This document shows, piece by piece, positions 7,165 to 15,372 of a DNA stretch of 64,000 nucleotides; positions within the stretch are counted from its first letter, which is position 1; each line of letters begins with the position of its first letter. The stretch spans positions 62,001-126,000 of the forward strand of contig CACLQI010000001.1 in NCBI GenBank assembly GCA_902608975.1, in the 5' to 3' direction. Below the pieces are notes generated by a model. It saw only the letters and a list, made by a program, of their open reading frames with translations. It did not search any database and was not told the origin of the DNA. A program made the position numbers and the translations under genes. The DNA is from an uncultured Pelagibacteraceae bacterium (GTDB lineage: Bacteria > Pseudomonadota > Alphaproteobacteria > Pelagibacterales > Pelagibacteraceae).

Positions 7165-7241
7165 TGGTACACGGGGACAGATTCGAACTGTCGACCTTCG
7201 GTTCCACAAACCGCTGCTCTAACCAACTGAGCTACCCGTGC
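7165..7241 (-). tRNA. tRNA-His (GTG), no encoded G-1
   Basis: A 77-nt cloverleaf with encoded CCA (7165-7167). Arms: acceptor GCACGGG with CCCGTGT, D-stem GCTC/GAGC, anticodon loop TTGTGGA with anticodon GTG, T-loop TTCGAAT. The base before G1 is A, the discriminator is A73 and pair 1-72 is G-U, so the near-universal G-1:C73 of bacterial tRNA-His is absent. The foot of the anticodon stem is a G-A mismatch. It lies immediately upstream of hisS and is probably co-transcribed with it. Confidence 0.95.
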
Positions 7242-7810: not shown

Positions 7811-7885
7811 TGGTGCCTCGGGAAGGATTCGCACCTCCGACACAAGCCTTTTCAGGGCTCTGCTCTACTCCTGAGCTACCGAGGC
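7811..7885 (-). tRNA. tRNA-Phe (GAA)
   Basis: A 75-nt cloverleaf with encoded CCA (7811-7813). Acceptor GCCTCGG pairs with CCGAGGC, discriminator is A, the anticodon stem is GAGCC/GGCTT and the loop CTGAAAA gives anticodon GAA. T-loop is TGCGAAT, so position 54 is T and 55 is G, slightly off the usual TTC. It sits 5 nt downstream of the infA stop. Confidence 0.93.
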
Positions 7886-11049: not shown

Positions 11050-11601
11050 TTATTTTGACTTAGCGAGAGTTATGCCACGCTGATCTTGATACTTTCTTGA
11101 GCCCTCTGCGTAAGATGTTTTTGGTTCTTCGCCTTCAAAAAAAAGTATTTGGGCTGCACCAGAATTTGCATAGAGTCTTATTGGAAGATTTGTATGATTG
11201 GCAAACTCCATAACTAAGTTACCTCTCCATCCACCTTCGAGGACACTTGAGGGTGTTCCAAGTCCAGTTCTAGCATAAGTACTTTTTGCTGTCACCAAAC
11301 CAGTAATACGTCTGGGCATCTTAAAATACTCTATACTAGCAGCTAAAGCAAAAGAGTTAGGTGGTACTAAAACTGATTCTTCACCTTTTACAGTTACAAA
11401 GCTATCTTCGGTAAAATTTTTAGGATCACAAATTGCACCTTTGGCATTGCTAAAAATTTTAAATTCATCTCCACAGCGAATATCATAACCAAAAGTTCCA
11501 AGTCCATGGCTTATTCCATTATGCACCAATTTATCAACAAAAGGATCAATCATATTTTCTTCTTCTGCTAATTTTTTTATTTGTTTGTCATTCAAAATCA
11601 T
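11050..11601 (-). CDS. dcd: dCTP deaminase
   Basis: Converts dCTP to dUTP, feeding thymidylate synthesis. The 183 residues fit the alphaproteobacterial Dcd form. Seen: the N-terminal pocket FGYDIRCGDEFKIF, AKSTYARTGLG, the catalytic block GGWRGNLVMEFAN with the conserved Glu, and the nucleotide-binding C-terminal YQDQRGITLAKSK. It starts 1 nt after a tiny basic ORF and ends 4 nt before murA, so the group is likely one operon. Confidence 0.94.
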   Translation of the reverse strand: MILNDKQIKKLAEEENMIDPFVDKLVHNGISHGLGTFGYDIRCGDEFKIFSNAKGAICDPKNFTEDSFVTVKGEESVLVPPNSFALAASIEYFKMPRRITGLVTAKSTYARTGLGTPSSVLEGGWRGNLVMEFANHTNLPIRLYANSGAAQILFFEGEEPKTSYAEGSRKYQDQRGITLAKSK

Positions 11602-11602
11602 C

Positions 11603-11716
11603 TTATTTACTTTTTTTATCTTTTAACTTTTTTTGAAAACTCTTTCTTTTTTTTAAATTTTTTCTTAATGCAAGCTCAAGCTTAGAAAGCTTATCTTTTT
11701 TATAATTAACATTCAT
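11603..11716 (-). CDS. Small basic protein, 37 residues, unknown
   Basis: The ORF starts with the ATG that overlaps the upstream gene's TGA (ATGA) and its TAA ends 1 nt before the dcd ATG, so it fills the gap exactly. The product is lysine-rich with a pattern L-x-x-A-L-R-x-N-L-x-x-R-K that resembles small basic proteins often found in alphaproteobacterial genomes; that similarity is recalled and not verified. There is no membrane segment or cysteine. Tight coupling on both sides is the best evidence that it is real. Confidence 0.5.
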   Translation of the reverse strand: MNVNYKKDKLSKLELALRKNLKKRKSFQKKLKDKKSK

Positions 11717-12003
11717 TTATCTTTGTTTGGATTGGTTATAAAATCTAATGAAAGTGGTTCATCAACTTTGATCTTGTTTAAATTTTCTTCATCTTTTTTA
11801 TTTCCAAATTTTGCCTGTCTTTTTGCTCTTCTTTCAGCTAATTTTTTCTCTCTTTTGGCTTTTTTTTCCATTGCTTTGGCACCACGTGTAGATTTAAAAT
11901 CATAATGTATGCCAAGGTAAGACCAGACTCCTTCATACTCGTAAGAGTCTTCATAAATTACTTTATTATTCTTATCTAAAATTATTTTTTTATAAACTTT
12001 CAT
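11713..12003 (-). CDS. Conserved-looking small protein, function unknown
   Basis: A 96-residue soluble protein. The N-terminal half is a beta-like segment with many aromatics (YKKIILDKNNKVIYEDSYEY, then WSYLGIHYDF), followed by a strongly basic helix (about residues 45-66, AKREKKLAERRAKRQAKFG) and an acidic tail. The basic helix suggests RNA or ribosome contact, which is only an inference. It heads the run that continues through the 37-residue ORF, dcd, murA, DUF2948 and hisD. I do not recognise the family. Confidence 0.6.
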   Translation of the reverse strand: MKVYKKIILDKNNKVIYEDSYEYEGVWSYLGIHYDFKSTRGAKAMEKKAKREKKLAERRAKRQAKFGNKKDEENLNKIKVDEPLSLDFITNPNKDK

Positions 12004-12102
12004 GATTTATACCAATTAGCACTAATATATTATAAAATTCGTAAAAAATAAGGCAATAATTTGAAAAATTAGAAATTATACACTAATCTTGCATTATCTG
12101 AG

Positions 12103-12176
12103 GCTCTCATAGTGAAATGGTATCACAAAAGCATGGTAAGCTTTTATTGCCTGGTCAGTACAGGCTGAGAGCACCA
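12103..12176 (+). tRNA. tRNA-Thr (GGT) with non-canonical T-loop
   Basis: A 74-nt cloverleaf with encoded CCA. Acceptor GCTCTCA pairs fully with TGAGAGC, discriminator A; D-stem GTGA/TCAC with loop AATGGTA (A14, G18G19 and A21 present); anticodon stem AAAGC/GCTTT with loop ATGGTAA, anticodon GGT; T-stem GCCTG/CAGGC. The T-loop reads GTCAGTA instead of TTCRANY: T54 and A58 are both G, while T55 and C56 are kept. G1-C72, C2-G71 and anticodon GGU fit threonine identity. TTGAAA at 12061 and TAATCT at 12084, 17 nt apart, could be a weak promoter. It may be functional or decaying. Confidence 0.75.
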
Positions 12177-12179
12177 GGT

Positions 12180-12902
12180 TTACTTTTTGAAAAAAAAATT
12201 TCTTAAAAATAAAGTTAGAAGGAACAATATTATAAAACACAAAATAGGAATATAAATTTCTGGTGATGATAATAGATCAATAAAAGATGGAGGTTCTGAA
12301 TTTTTTTTAATTTGTTTTTCCAAACCAGCTCCCAAAGAAACAACAATCCAAGCTTGGGGAAAAATACCTAAAAAAGTACCAAAAAAATAATACCTTAGTT
12401 TGATATTAAACAAAATAGGTATTAAATTTTGTATTTGAATTGGAATACCACCTATAAATCGAAGTATCGCAACAGCAAAAAATTGATGTTTTTGAATTTT
12501 TTCATTTAGAGATTGATAATTATTTTTAATTTTTTCTTTAATAAAATCTTTAAAAAAAAAATTAGCAACTATATACGTAAAACTTGCTCCTATTGTAAAA
12601 GTTATAGTTAATATTATAGTCCCCAAATAAGAACCAAACAAAAATCCAGCTATGAGACCAAGCGGAGAACCAAAACCTTGTAGTACTGAAATCCAAAATA
12701 TTCCCAATAAAATAAAGCCAACTGAAATAAAAAATAAATTAGATTGCTTGTAGTTTGACAAATATTCAATATTCGATTTTATAAAATCGTAGCTAGTTAT
12801 TTCTTGAATGCTAAATTTTGAAAAAAAAAAATATAAAAAAACTGAAAGTAGTAATAAATAGGTTGTTCCAATCAAAATTTTAATACTTTTCATTCTTTGC
12901 AT
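12180..12902 (-). CDS. TVP38/TMEM64 (VTT domain) membrane protein
   Basis: A 240-residue integral membrane protein with an N-terminal transmembrane segment, a central VTT (SNARE-associated, DedA-superfamily) core and a C-terminal membrane segment ending in basic residues. The family hallmark G-x(n)-R-x(n)-P is seen as AILRFIGGIPIQIQNLIP (about residues 147-163) and the glycine-rich loop GFGSPLGLIAGFLFGSYLGT precedes it. DedA/VTT proteins include lipid scramblases and undecaprenyl-phosphate flippases; the substrate here cannot be assigned. ATG at 12902 or 12893 are both possible starts. The stop is 3 nt from the 3' end of convergent tRNA-Thr. Confidence 0.85.
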   Translation of the reverse strand: MQRMKSIKILIGTTYLLLLSVFLYFFFSKFSIQEITSYDFIKSNIEYLSNYKQSNLFFISVGFILLGIFWISVLQGFGSPLGLIAGFLFGSYLGTIILTITFTIGASFTYIVANFFFKDFIKEKIKNNYQSLNEKIQKHQFFAVAILRFIGGIPIQIQNLIPILFNIKLRYYFFGTFLGIFPQAWIVVSLGAGLEKQIKKNSEPPSFIDLLSSPEIYIPILCFIILFLLTLFLRNFFFKK

Positions 12903-12961
12903 AATTCTAGTTTATACACTATAAATACCGAAAATTTTAACAATACAAAAACAAAAGATAT

Positions 12962-13096
12962 ATGAAAAGAACTTGGGCTCCAAAAAGAAAAAAAAGACGA
13001 AGAAAATTAGGTTTTAGAAAAAAAATGTCAACTTTGAAAGGTCGCAAGACTCTATCAAGAAGAAGAAAAAAAGGTCGTAAAAAACTCATTCCTTAA
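12962..13096 (+). CDS. rpmH: 50S ribosomal protein L34
   Basis: A 44-residue, very basic protein opening MKRTW and carrying LGFRKKM-STLKGRKTLSRRRKKGRKKL, which is the L34 pattern GFR-x-RM...GR-x-(V/T)L-x-RRR-x-KGRK-x-L. The usual QPS after MKRT is replaced by a lysine/arginine run, a divergent N-terminus. It starts the rpmH-rnpA-yidD-yidC run, with rnpA 8 nt downstream. Confidence 0.95.
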   Translation: MKRTWAPKRKKRRRKLGFRKKMSTLKGRKTLSRRRKKGRKKLIP

Positions 13097-13104
13097 CTAA
13101 GTCA

Positions 13105-13452
13105 ATGAAAATTAAAATTGTTGCTTTAAAAAAAGATAAAGATTTTAAGGCATTGTTAAAAGGACAAAAAATATCGAATAAATATTTCGTTATGTTTTAT
13201 AAAAAAATACTTAATAAAAAATCTAATAGTTTAAATTTAAGTATCGTTGCTAAGAAAAAAATATTTCCTAAAGCTGTTGATAGAAATTTTGGTAAAAGAC
13301 GGTTTAAAAATGTGTTAAATCAAGCAATAAAAAAAATTGCATTAAACTTTAATTATTCATATTTAATATTGGCTAAAGAAAATGTTTTAAAAAAAAATTG
13401 TTTTGAAGATTTAAAAAAAACAATGTTTAAGGAATTAAATAAAATTGTATAA
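13105..13452 (+). CDS. rnpA: Ribonuclease P protein component
   Basis: The 115-residue basic protein contains the RNR-type signature as AVDRNFGKRRFKNVLNQA (about residues 56-73), which binds the catalytic RNA, and has the expected length. It helps RNase P RNA mature tRNA 5' ends. It lies directly after rpmH, as in most bacteria, and its TAA overlaps the yidD ATG by one base. Confidence 0.92.
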   Translation: MKIKIVALKKDKDFKALLKGQKISNKYFVMFYKKILNKKSNSLNLSIVAKKKIFPKAVDRNFGKRRFKNVLNQAIKKIALNFNYSYLILAKENVLKKNCFEDLKKTMFKELNKIV

Positions 13453-13689: not shown

Positions 13690-15372
13690 ATGGAAATAAA
13701 AAATTTAATTGCAGCAGTAACATTATCATTAGCTATAATTATATTGTACTCTTTGTTTTTTCAACCCTCGCCAGAAGAAATGAAAAAGTTGAAAACAGAA
13801 AAGGAAAAGAAAGAATTAATTAAAAATTCTGATGCTCCTAGTTTGGATGAAACTAAAATTTCTTCTAAAATATCAAGAAAAGATGCTTTGAATGAAAATA
13901 ATAGAATAATTTTTGAAAACGAAAACATTATTGGTTCAATTTCTCTCAGAGGAGCTACAATCGATGATTTAACTTTTAAAAACTATAAAATAAGCTTAGA
14001 TAAAAGAGAAAAGGTAATTCTTTTAAATCCTAGAAATTTAAAAAATGGTTATTCAGTTGAAAGTGGTTTTATTACAAATTCAAAAAACATTAAAATTCCA
14101 AATTCTAAAACTGAATGGAAGGTTTTAGGAAATAAAAAATTAACTAATAATAACCCTGTAAAATTAGTCTGGGACAATAATCAAGGAATTACATTTGAAA
14201 AAAATATTAGTCTTGATGATCAATTTTTGTTTACAGTAAAAGAAAAAGTTATCAACTCATCAGATAAAACTTATAATTTTTATTCTTACGGTCAAATAAT
14301 TCGTAACCAAAAACCACAAATTTCTGGTTTTTATATTTTACATGAGGGTCCTATCGCAACACTTGATGATGAATTAATTGAGGAAGATTATGATGATATT
14401 AGAGACGAAAAATTTTCAAGAACTTCGTCTAAAGGATGGCTTGGAATTAGTGACAAATATTGGATTACAAGTATCGTTCCCCCAAGAAATAAAGATTTTA
14501 AAACAACTTTTGATTATAAAAATAAATTCAGAATAAATTATATATCTTCAGAAGGATTTGAGGCTGGACCTAATGATACTATTGAAGAAGAAATTCAAAT
14601 TATTGTTGCGGCTAAAAGAGTTGAAACAATTGATGGTTATGCGAAAAATTTGAACATTGATAAATTTGACTTAGTAATAGATTGGGGAGTAATGTATTTT
14701 TTAACGAAACCATTATTCTTTGCAATTGACTACTTCTTTAAATTGCTAGGTAATTATGGTTTAGCAATTATAGCAGTTACAATTTGTATTAGGTTAATAT
14801 TTTTTCCGCTCGCTAATTTTTCCTTCAAGTCGATGGGAAAAATGAAGCTACTGCAGCCAGAAATGACAAGATTAAAAGAACTTCATAAGGATGATAAAAT
14901 GAAGTTACAACAAGAAATGATGGCACTATACAAAAGAGAAGGTGTTAATCCTATGAGTGGTTGTTTACCAATACTAGTTCAGATCCCTGTGTTTTTCGCT
15001 TTATATAAAGTATTGTTTGTAACAATTGAGATGAGGCATATGCCCTTTTATGGTTGGATTAAAGATTTATCTGATAAGGATCCAACTTCTTTATTTAATC
15101 TTTTTGGTTTAATTCCTTGGGATCCACCATCATTTTTAATTATAGGTGCTTGGCCTGTAGCAATGGGAATTTCCATGTGGATACAGCAAAAACTAAATCC
15201 CGCTCCACCAGATCCTGTGCAAGCAAAAATCTTCATGTTTTTTCCAATTTTTTTAACAATAATACTTGCGCCCTTTCCAGCTGGTCTAGTGATCTATTGG
15301 ACTTTTAATAATATTTTTACGCTAATTCAGCAGTATTATATTCAAAGAAAAACGACAGTTAAAACAAAGTAG
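13690..15372 (+). CDS. yidC: Membrane protein insertase YidC
   Basis: The 560-residue protein has an N-terminal membrane anchor (about residues 5-23), a large periplasmic beta domain (about 50-320), then the conserved five-helix insertase core starting near residue 335 (DWGVMYFLTKPLFFAID) and including GCLPILVQIPVFFALYKVL and GLVIYWTFNNIFTLIQQYYI. The length is that of the Gram-negative form. An AAGGAG sits 12 nt upstream of the ATG. The engB GTPase gene that often follows yidC in alphaproteobacteria is not present; argB follows with no gap. Confidence 0.96.
   Translation: MEIKNLIAAVTLSLAIIILYSLFFQPSPEEMKKLKTEKEKKELIKNSDAPSLDETKISSKISRKDALNENNRIIFENENIIGSISLRGATIDDLTFKNYKISLDKREKVILLNPRNLKNGYSVESGFITNSKNIKIPNSKTEWKVLGNKKLTNNNPVKLVWDNNQGITFEKNISLDDQFLFTVKEKVINSSDKTYNFYSYGQIIRNQKPQISGFYILHEGPIATLDDELIEEDYDDIRDEKFSRTSSKGWLGISDKYWITSIVPPRNKDFKTTFDYKNKFRINYISSEGFEAGPNDTIEEEIQIIVAAKRVETIDGYAKNLNIDKFDLVIDWGVMYFLTKPLFFAIDYFFKLLGNYGLAIIAVTICIRLIFFPLANFSFKSMGKMKLLQPEMTRLKELHKDDKMKLQQEMMALYKREGVNPMSGCLPILVQIPVFFALYKVLFVTIEMRHMPFYGWIKDLSDKDPTSLFNLFGLIPWDPPSFLIIGAWPVAMGISMWIQQKLNPAPPDPVQAKIFMFFPIFLTIILAPFPAGLVIYWTFNNIFTLIQQYYIQRKTTVKTK

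Follow-up and report, generated by a model that had tools for sequence, protein, structure and literature searches.

Positions 54 and 58 of the tRNA T-loop are reportedly the subject of a paper by Zagryadskaya, Doyon and Steinberg (2003). According to passages of PMC7912444, U54 and A58 normally pair in trans Watson-Crick/Hoogsteen geometry, which is one of the key elbow contacts, and U54 is universally conserved apart from the eukaryotic initiator tRNA, which has A54-A58. For islands that reside in tRNA genes, passages of PMC4383910 name the anticodon loop as a known attachment subsite and state that the target is normally restored via an attP fragment. A natural tRNA with both G54 and G58 was found reported in none of the portions covered of PMC7912444, PMC4810234, PMC10872708, PMC4383910, and PMC13015707; subscription journals were mostly outside this coverage, and earlier reports may exist. 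Here, we describe such a tRNA, a tRNA-Thr(GGU) encoded by an uncultured SAR11 bacterium of the Pelagibacteraceae. The stretch of DNA analysed, 64,000 nucleotides in all, is called the window below.

Results

A tRNA-Thr(GGU) gene with a variant T-loop

At 12103..12176 of the plus strand, the window contains a gene for a tRNA-Thr(GGU) of 74 nt with encoded CCA, a 7-nt D-loop, and a 4-nt variable loop, which was recognized by ARAGORN (as a complete tRNA-Thr(ggt)), by the covariance model RF00005, and by its fold. All stems are paired (acceptor GCTCTCA/TGAGAGC, D-stem GTGA/TCAC, anticodon stem AAAGC/GCTTT, T-stem GCCTG/CAGGC), and the cloverleaf is the minimum-energy structure (-25.9 kcal/mol, z -3.76; equaled by 0 of 200 shuffles). 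Within the T-arm (12149..12165, plus strand; GCCTG-GTCAGTA-CAGGC by direct reading and fold), the loop was read directly at 12154..12160 (plus strand) as G54 (12154), U55, C56, A57, G58 (12158), U59, and A60. GTCAGTA does not conform to the T-loop consensus TTCRANY, which makes it a non-canonical variant. G18 and G19, with which U55 and C56 presumably make their D-loop contacts, lie at 12119..12120 (plus strand) by direct reading, and this assignment is consistent with the covariation of 18-55 and 19-56 in viral tRNAs (see below). The anticodon GGT (12135..12137, plus strand; ARAGORN) reads ACC and ACU. G1-C72, C2-G71, and the anticodon GGU, which we take to be the threonine identity bases, are all present, and both pairs are invariant in 33 distinct copies of this tRNA. 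A preliminary description of this DNA had claimed a tRNA-Thr(GGU) with G54 and G58 in its T-loop, which direct reading, ARAGORN, and RF00005 bear out; that stems, CCA, threonine identity bases, and G18, G19, T55, and C56 are kept was equally confirmed by direct reading. The weak upstream promoter claimed alongside did not hold up: 11950-12300 contains four promoter-like sites, one of them upstream of the tRNA on the plus strand, compared with 2.3 ± 1.4 in shuffled sequence, which is not above chance.

The covariance-model score, proposed in the same description as a check, was 50.2 bits (RF00005, genome search), the lowest above the cut-off in the organism's own genome, and 12103-12176 did not appear in a default cmscan of the window. 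ARAGORN, for its part, misses tRNAs with the loop AGCGTAA at loci L336, L337, and L278, as well as the complete tRNA of a mobile element treated below (L279 10385-10458). Because the tools used partly miss such variant-loop tRNAs, tRNA counts may be biased.

In the organism's own assembly (84.7% complete), 22 tRNA matches lay above the cut-off, and the window gene was the sole tRNA-Thr among them. A normal tRNA-Thr(GGU) elsewhere, which would have spoken against the preliminary description, was not found in this assembly, from which, given its completeness, a second Thr(GGU) gene could be missing. The related genome G063 (one contig, 99% complete) gave 32 tRNA matches, all of which were read, 31 by ARAGORN and one tRNA-His by eye. 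Its tRNA-Thr genes are two: one for UGU with an ordinary loop, and one for GGU with GTCAGTA, which is the sole GGU reader found among the 32 and has the lowest RF00005 score there (46.1 bits). Both codons are in use in the window (ACC 62 and ACU 326 times in 48 ORFs of ≥150 aa).

Conservation of the loop and compensation in the stems

The pattern TGGTAA-N12-15-GGTCAGTAC, that is, the GTCAGTA loop placed after the Thr(GGU) anticodon loop, matched 102 of 397 Pelagibacterales genomes, the organism's own among them, which come from 3 of 13 genera and both families (f1 and f2); the backward control matched 2 of 397. The comparison with related genomes proposed earlier thus revealed a loop common to many of them. 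Outside the order, a stricter tRNA pattern matched 0 of 286 sampled genomes of the class, and among 349 genomes of the phylum, an any-anticodon pattern (one D-loop length, one variable-loop length) matched that of the window's organism only. In named genomes, at least 120 stretches matched the tRNA pattern. Among the matches listed, titles read Pelagibacteraceae, Pelagibacterales, or Candidatus Pelagibacter except for two, one Rickettsiales MAG and one uncultured Alphaproteobacteria. Sequencing error as the source of GTCAGTA was ruled out, since the loop is present in many separate assemblies.

Many Pelagibacter copies are nearly identical. In a set of 33 distinct 74-nt copies (SAR11 plus two less exactly titled records, with viral loci, three 75-nt copies, and the 73-nt copies excluded), in which the loop was fixed by the filter and G-U counted as paired, 692 of 693 stem cells pair, and double changes have occurred at 16 of 21 stem pairs. 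The stems thus change in a compensated fashion while the loop is kept, which argues for selection on a working tRNA; the loss of pairing or selection expected of a pseudogene is not seen in these copies. The preliminary description had offered a functional variant or an early pseudogene and had leaned towards a selective change. This leaning agrees with the compensated stems around a conserved loop, and the functional variant is further supported by the sole GGU reader of G063 and by covariation of 54 and 58 in viral tRNAs, whereas the pseudogene is contradicted by the spread of the loop and the near-complete stem pairing.

Viral tRNAs with the same loop and covariation in the elbow

Scans of viral contigs yielded 8 and 11 stretches with the tRNA-Thr form of the loop, and 30 and 2 stretches (IMG/VR contigs) with GTCRGTA and any anticodon. 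ARAGORN confirmed GTCRGTA in 23 of 25 newly fetched viral loci (GC 0.30-0.68), with the identities His (9), Ile (6, one sequence), Glu (4), Gly, Asp, and Trp, and one left without assignment; the remaining two are tRNA-His-like by eye. Viral tRNAs of seven identities (Gly, Ile, His, Glu, Asp, Trp, and Thr) carry the loop, and the idea of a Thr-specific loop was rejected for this reason.

For covariation, 348 distinct viral tRNAs were retained from 520, after removal of 73 without CCA, 72 duplicates, 15 for the D-stem, and 12 for the T-stem. Positions 54-58 in the 327 without the seed loop are TA in 306, AT in 17, AA in 3, and CA in 1; G54 occurs in none. The two positions thus change together in non-seed viral tRNAs; the G-G copies come from the seeded search, and, because that search used GTCRGTA-fixed patterns, they could not vary at 54, 58, 59, and 60. 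In the 124 viral tRNAs with 7-nt D-loops, mutual information as high as observed was reached by 0 of 2,000 shuffles for 54-58 and 18-55, by 1 of 2,000 for 19-56 (0 of 2,000 in the 103 non-seed tRNAs), and by 311-362 of 2,000 for the control pairs 18-56 and 19-55, counts that are not probabilities since the shuffles keep relatedness. Few variants lie behind the signals of 18-55 (A-G, 6) and 19-56 (A-U, 2; U-A, 1; n = 124), and 7 of 124 tRNAs show an unexpected combination at one of these pairs, some perhaps from misplaced D-loops. A pyrimidine occupies position 60 in 298 of 306 U-A loops and in 4 of 20 A-U and A-A loops; GTCAGTA has A60. That positions 54 and 58 covary among U-A, A-U, and A-A points to a pairing of G54 with G58 as well, and such a pair in place of U54-A58 is probable on this comparative basis. 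As to the rare 54-58 pairing considered in the preliminary description, the covariation of the two positions supports it, while the G-G pair itself we infer.

The viral arrays of L237-L247 and L291-L315, read by eye, combine A18/G55, A19/U56, C19/G56, U19/A56, and G18/C55 with A-U or G-G at 54-58. An 18-nt stretch, TAGCACAATGGTAGTGCA, is common to a family f2 copy of tRNA-Thr(GGU) and the viral tRNA of L239, and the latter matches two Stenotrophomonas phages over 59%; in phage records, the best matches of the window tRNA cover ≤31% of it (E up to 10). L237, L238, and L243 are not clearly phage, several of ten tested proteins being of cellular type (HSP70, coproporphyrinogen oxidase), and some marine "viral" contigs may be bacterial rather than viral.

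Modification of U54

PF05958 (TrmA and kin) matched 0 of 11 SAR11 genomes compared with 12 of 14 control genomes, and the TrmFO cut-off (TIGR00137, 428.65 bits) was reached in 0 of 11 compared with 7 of 14. Weak TrmFO matches occur in all 11 SAR11 genomes (49.7-64.9 bits) and were read as MnmG because they are limited to positions 277-387, in ORFs of 622-640 aa; another match in G037 scores 18 bits. Judged from gene content, U54 is probably unmethylated in SAR11, and, with both known U54 methylase families apparently absent, the constraint on position 54 may be relaxed.

Turnover of elbow designs among relatives

With most of the T-loop left free and up to 3 mismatches allowed, a pattern found hits in 48 of 78 genomes, compared with 1 for its backward control. 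The Thr(GGU) loops obtained in addition to GTCAGTA are TTCAATT and TTCGATT with G18 G19, TTAGATT with U19 (U19-A56 in place of G19-C56), and AGCGTAA with A18, the last in family f2 and with A18 opposite G55 and A54 opposite U58. In 26 genomes, most of which the open-loop pattern had missed, a covariance model was used. Eight of them, from genera g5, g6, g7, g9, and g11, have the ordinary TTCRATT loop and a variable loop of 5 nt, G120 and G077 have TGCAAGT with A18, and G039 and G037 have AGCGTAA in tRNAs that ARAGORN does not call; for another 13 of the 26, Thr(GGU) was not among the loci read. The complete genome G012 has TGCAAGT with A18 and a CCA minus its final A. The Thr(GGU) locus is one where the elbow design turns over among relatives.

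This turnover is not confined to Thr, since tRNAs for Val, Phe, and His also have variant elbows. AGCGTAA with A18 is found in the tRNA-Val(GAC) of three Pelagibacter genomes, the organism's own (L002), G063 (L250), and G012, and the f2 genomes G048 and G084 have an ordinary loop there. The tRNA-Phe of the window (7811-7885) has the T-loop TGCGAAT (G55) with A18, as in G063 and G012. The tRNA-His of the window (7165-7241) has the ordinary loop TTCGAAT, whereas that of G063 (L278 1501-1571, minus strand; not called by ARAGORN) has AGCGTAA with A18, an elbow turnover at a second gene.

Locus and a presumed exchanged block

Upstream of the tRNA, the minus strand encodes a dCTP-deaminase-like protein (11050..11601; PF22769) and, just before the tRNA, a 96-aa ORF without Pfam match (11713..12003) that is syntenic in many Pelagibacter loci. 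On the other side, the tRNA is adjoined by a gene for a VTT-domain (DedA-like) membrane protein (12180..12902, minus strand; PF09335, E 1.8e-19), and a 560-aa ORF, which we take to be yidC, lies at 13690..15372 (plus strand). This gene order is common to many SAR11 loci with GTCAGTA; in Pelagibacter loci with both flanks, the neighbors of Thr(GGU) are mostly kept, and family f2 has other neighbors. Among the matches listed, the dCTP-deaminase-like gene falls into two Pelagibacter classes with ∼72-94% or ∼42-50% identity to that of the window, in the same gene order. Inserts between tRNA-Thr(GGU) and the VTT gene at L224, L233, and L287 mark an insertion spot and contain membrane-like ORFs of 412 and 422 aa; insert ORFs of L234 and L287 are presumably glycosyltransferase-like and sugar-epimerase-like.

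Judged by flanking genes, G073 (L289) is the closest relative found; its Thr(GGU) loop is TTCGATT. Identity to G073 is 94% for the dCTP-deaminase-like protein, 90% for the 96-aa ORF, 90% for yidC, and, for two neighbors presumed to be murA and rnpA, 86% (over 279 aa) and 75%, respectively. In a 60-column profile, nucleotide identity is 0.77-0.90 at 11061-12080, 0.53-0.72 at 12081-12850, and 0.80-0.97 at 12851-13264, the two outermost blocks of the aligned G073 piece having 0.72 and 0.52. The low-identity block (12081..12850, 53-72%, ends approximate), which we presume to be an exchanged cassette, covers the tRNA together with most of the VTT gene. The VTT protein is 52.6% identical to its counterpart in G073, and the best match among all loci reaches 53.0%.

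A yidC tree was built from 56 rows. Of the 69 rows with GTCAGTA, 36 were taken (alternate rows together with the window and G081), and the 20 rows with other loops were all kept. Window and G073 form a pair (support 100), and at least six switches between GTCAGTA and other loops are needed on this tree, in which 16 of 53 inner branches are poorly supported and four end branches are long. A single GTCAGTA clade was rejected, the group having been named from the loop and the tree being a quick one with long branches. Exchange of a cassette of tRNA and VTT gene by homologous recombination is the simplest reading, and arrival of the window copy by recombination is very likely; no donor of the block was found, and part of the signal could also come from rapid evolution of the VTT gene. 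Within the window, the 3′ end of the tRNA (≤3 mismatches) occurs in the gene itself only, and an integrative element inside the window was rejected for lack of a second such end.

A mobile element that carries the variant tRNA

Genome G054 of family f2 contains a 9.2-kb integrative element (L279 10136-19297) that splits the host's tRNA-Thr(GGU) at the anticodon loop. The two host parts, positions 1-37 and 30-74, are separated by 9.2 kb, and the 8 bp ATTGGTAA at the anticodon loop is present in both. The element carries a complete tRNA-Thr(GGU) of its own (L279 10385-10458) with the GTCAGTA loop and a T53-A61 pair. Beside this tRNA lies a gene for a tyrosine recombinase (PF13356, PF00589); an in-frame ATG of this gene overlaps the tRNA's CCA, and its longest ORF begins within the tRNA, at a TTG. 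The element also encodes a primase-like protein of 809 aa (PF22548). In G041, an unbroken tRNA sits between the two genes that flank the split tRNA of G054. Restoration of the target was not seen in G054, where, by eye, the sequence beyond the host 5′ part completes no tRNA, and pattern searches of this genome (85% complete) found no intact Thr(GGU) other than that of the element. A tRNA-Thr running into a recombinase gene was found, among 404 loci, only in four of the G054 place, and in viral contigs neither this arrangement nor relatives of the G054 recombinase were found. This element, the single case seen of a split tRNA-Thr(GGU) and from a family other than that of the window, shows that mobile DNA can carry a tRNA-Thr(GGU) with GTCAGTA; the window copy may have had such a source.

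Discussion

The gene of the window is likely to encode an elongator tRNA-Thr(GGU) that works with an alternative T-loop in its elbow, and we regard it as almost certain that the gene is functional. Since GTCAGTA is kept in many relatives and also found in tRNA genes of viruses, we see in it an alternative design that appears to work, not a sign of decay. G54 and G58 would replace the trans Watson-Crick/Hoogsteen U54-A58 pair, and U55-G18 and C56-G19 would dock the loop as usual, so that the tRNA would keep its L-shape, threonine charging, and the reading of ACC and ACU. The absence of both U54 methylase families would have relaxed the constraint on U54, and tRNA and VTT gene would have been exchanged as one block by homologous recombination. 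The loop type might ultimately stem from a pool of tRNAs borne by phages and integrative elements, a source that we favor by a narrow degree.

Were the gene an early pseudogene, its T-loop changes would represent decay of an unused gene, as might be suspected from RF00005 scores that are the lowest above the cut-off in its own genome (50.2 bits) and in G063 (46.1 bits) and from its omission by the default cmscan. Such decay is hardly compatible with a loop present in 102 of 397 genomes, with double changes at 16 of 21 stem pairs, or with a tRNA that is the sole GGU reader found in the near-complete G063 while ACC codons are in use, and we regard it as extremely improbable. Only slightly more credible, and still very unlikely, is a special, perhaps non-translational role for which the T-loop was tuned away from ordinary elongation. 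GTCAGTA does depart from the T-loop consensus met by translation factors, but no other GGU reader was found in G063 and the window uses ACC codons; moreover, G18, G19, U55, and C56 are kept, and the loop occurs on many viral tRNA identities.

A more serious competitor is ordinary drift within SAR11 after loss of U54 methylation, with vertical inheritance and no input from phages or elements. In its favor, both U54 methylase families are apparently absent from 11 of 11 genomes, and many Pelagibacter copies are nearly identical. Against this stand the rejection of one GTCAGTA clade on the yidC tree with its six or more switches, the position of the window copy in a diverged block, the viral tRNA arrays with the loop on several identities, and the 18 nt shared between the f2 copy and the viral tRNA of L239. 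Drift alone thus appears unlikely to us, and a working elongator tRNA that arrived by recombination remains the preferred reading.

More speculatively, the elbow might be a small recodable set of designs, with U-A, A-U, or G-G at 54-58, G-U or A-G at 18-55, and various Watson-Crick pairs at 19-56. Phages and elements would carry recoded tRNAs for their escape from host enzymes specific to the standard elbow and would replace essential host tRNAs with them, many SAR11 now being dependent on such a tRNA for ACC; we consider this extended scenario doubtful. With a conserved bacterial elongator tRNA that has G54/G58, nature provides a test of which elbow features are required for charging, EF-Tu binding, and translocation. 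Elbow turnover at one gene, together with an element that breaks the host tRNA and brings a copy along, suggests a route by which mobile DNA could replace a needed tRNA.

Compared with known tRNAs, the window tRNA has G1-C72, C2-G71, GGU, CCA, and G18/G19 with U55/C56 in common with the canonical tRNA-Thr(GGU) of bacteria, other SAR11 genera among them; in g5, g6, g7, g9, and g11, the canonical form combines TTCRATT with a 5-nt variable loop, whereas the window tRNA combines GTCAGTA with one of 4 nt. The eukaryotic initiator tRNA-Met likewise lacks U54 and has a purine-purine combination, A54-A58, as stated in passages of PMC7912444; the window tRNA differs in having G54/G58 and in being a bacterial elongator. 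Viral GTCRGTA tRNAs agree with the window tRNA in T-loop, D-loop length (7 nt), variable-loop length (4 nt), and G18/G19, features that the search pattern fixed, but they are of several identities and lie on viral contigs, whereas the window has one chromosomal gene, apparently the sole GGU reader.

Among mobile elements, islands in tRNA genes (Islander) resemble the G054 element in combining a tyrosine recombinase with a tRNA gene as site, and the crossover at the anticodon loop in G054 matches an attachment subsite known from the portion covered of PMC4383910. In G054, unlike in the islands described there, neither host part is made whole, and the complete tRNA-Thr found there is a different one. 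Tycheposons, treated in a paper on Methylophilaceae (PMC10872708), are a further type of element with which that of G054 can be compared. The window, unlike G054, is without any element of the Islander or tycheposon type.
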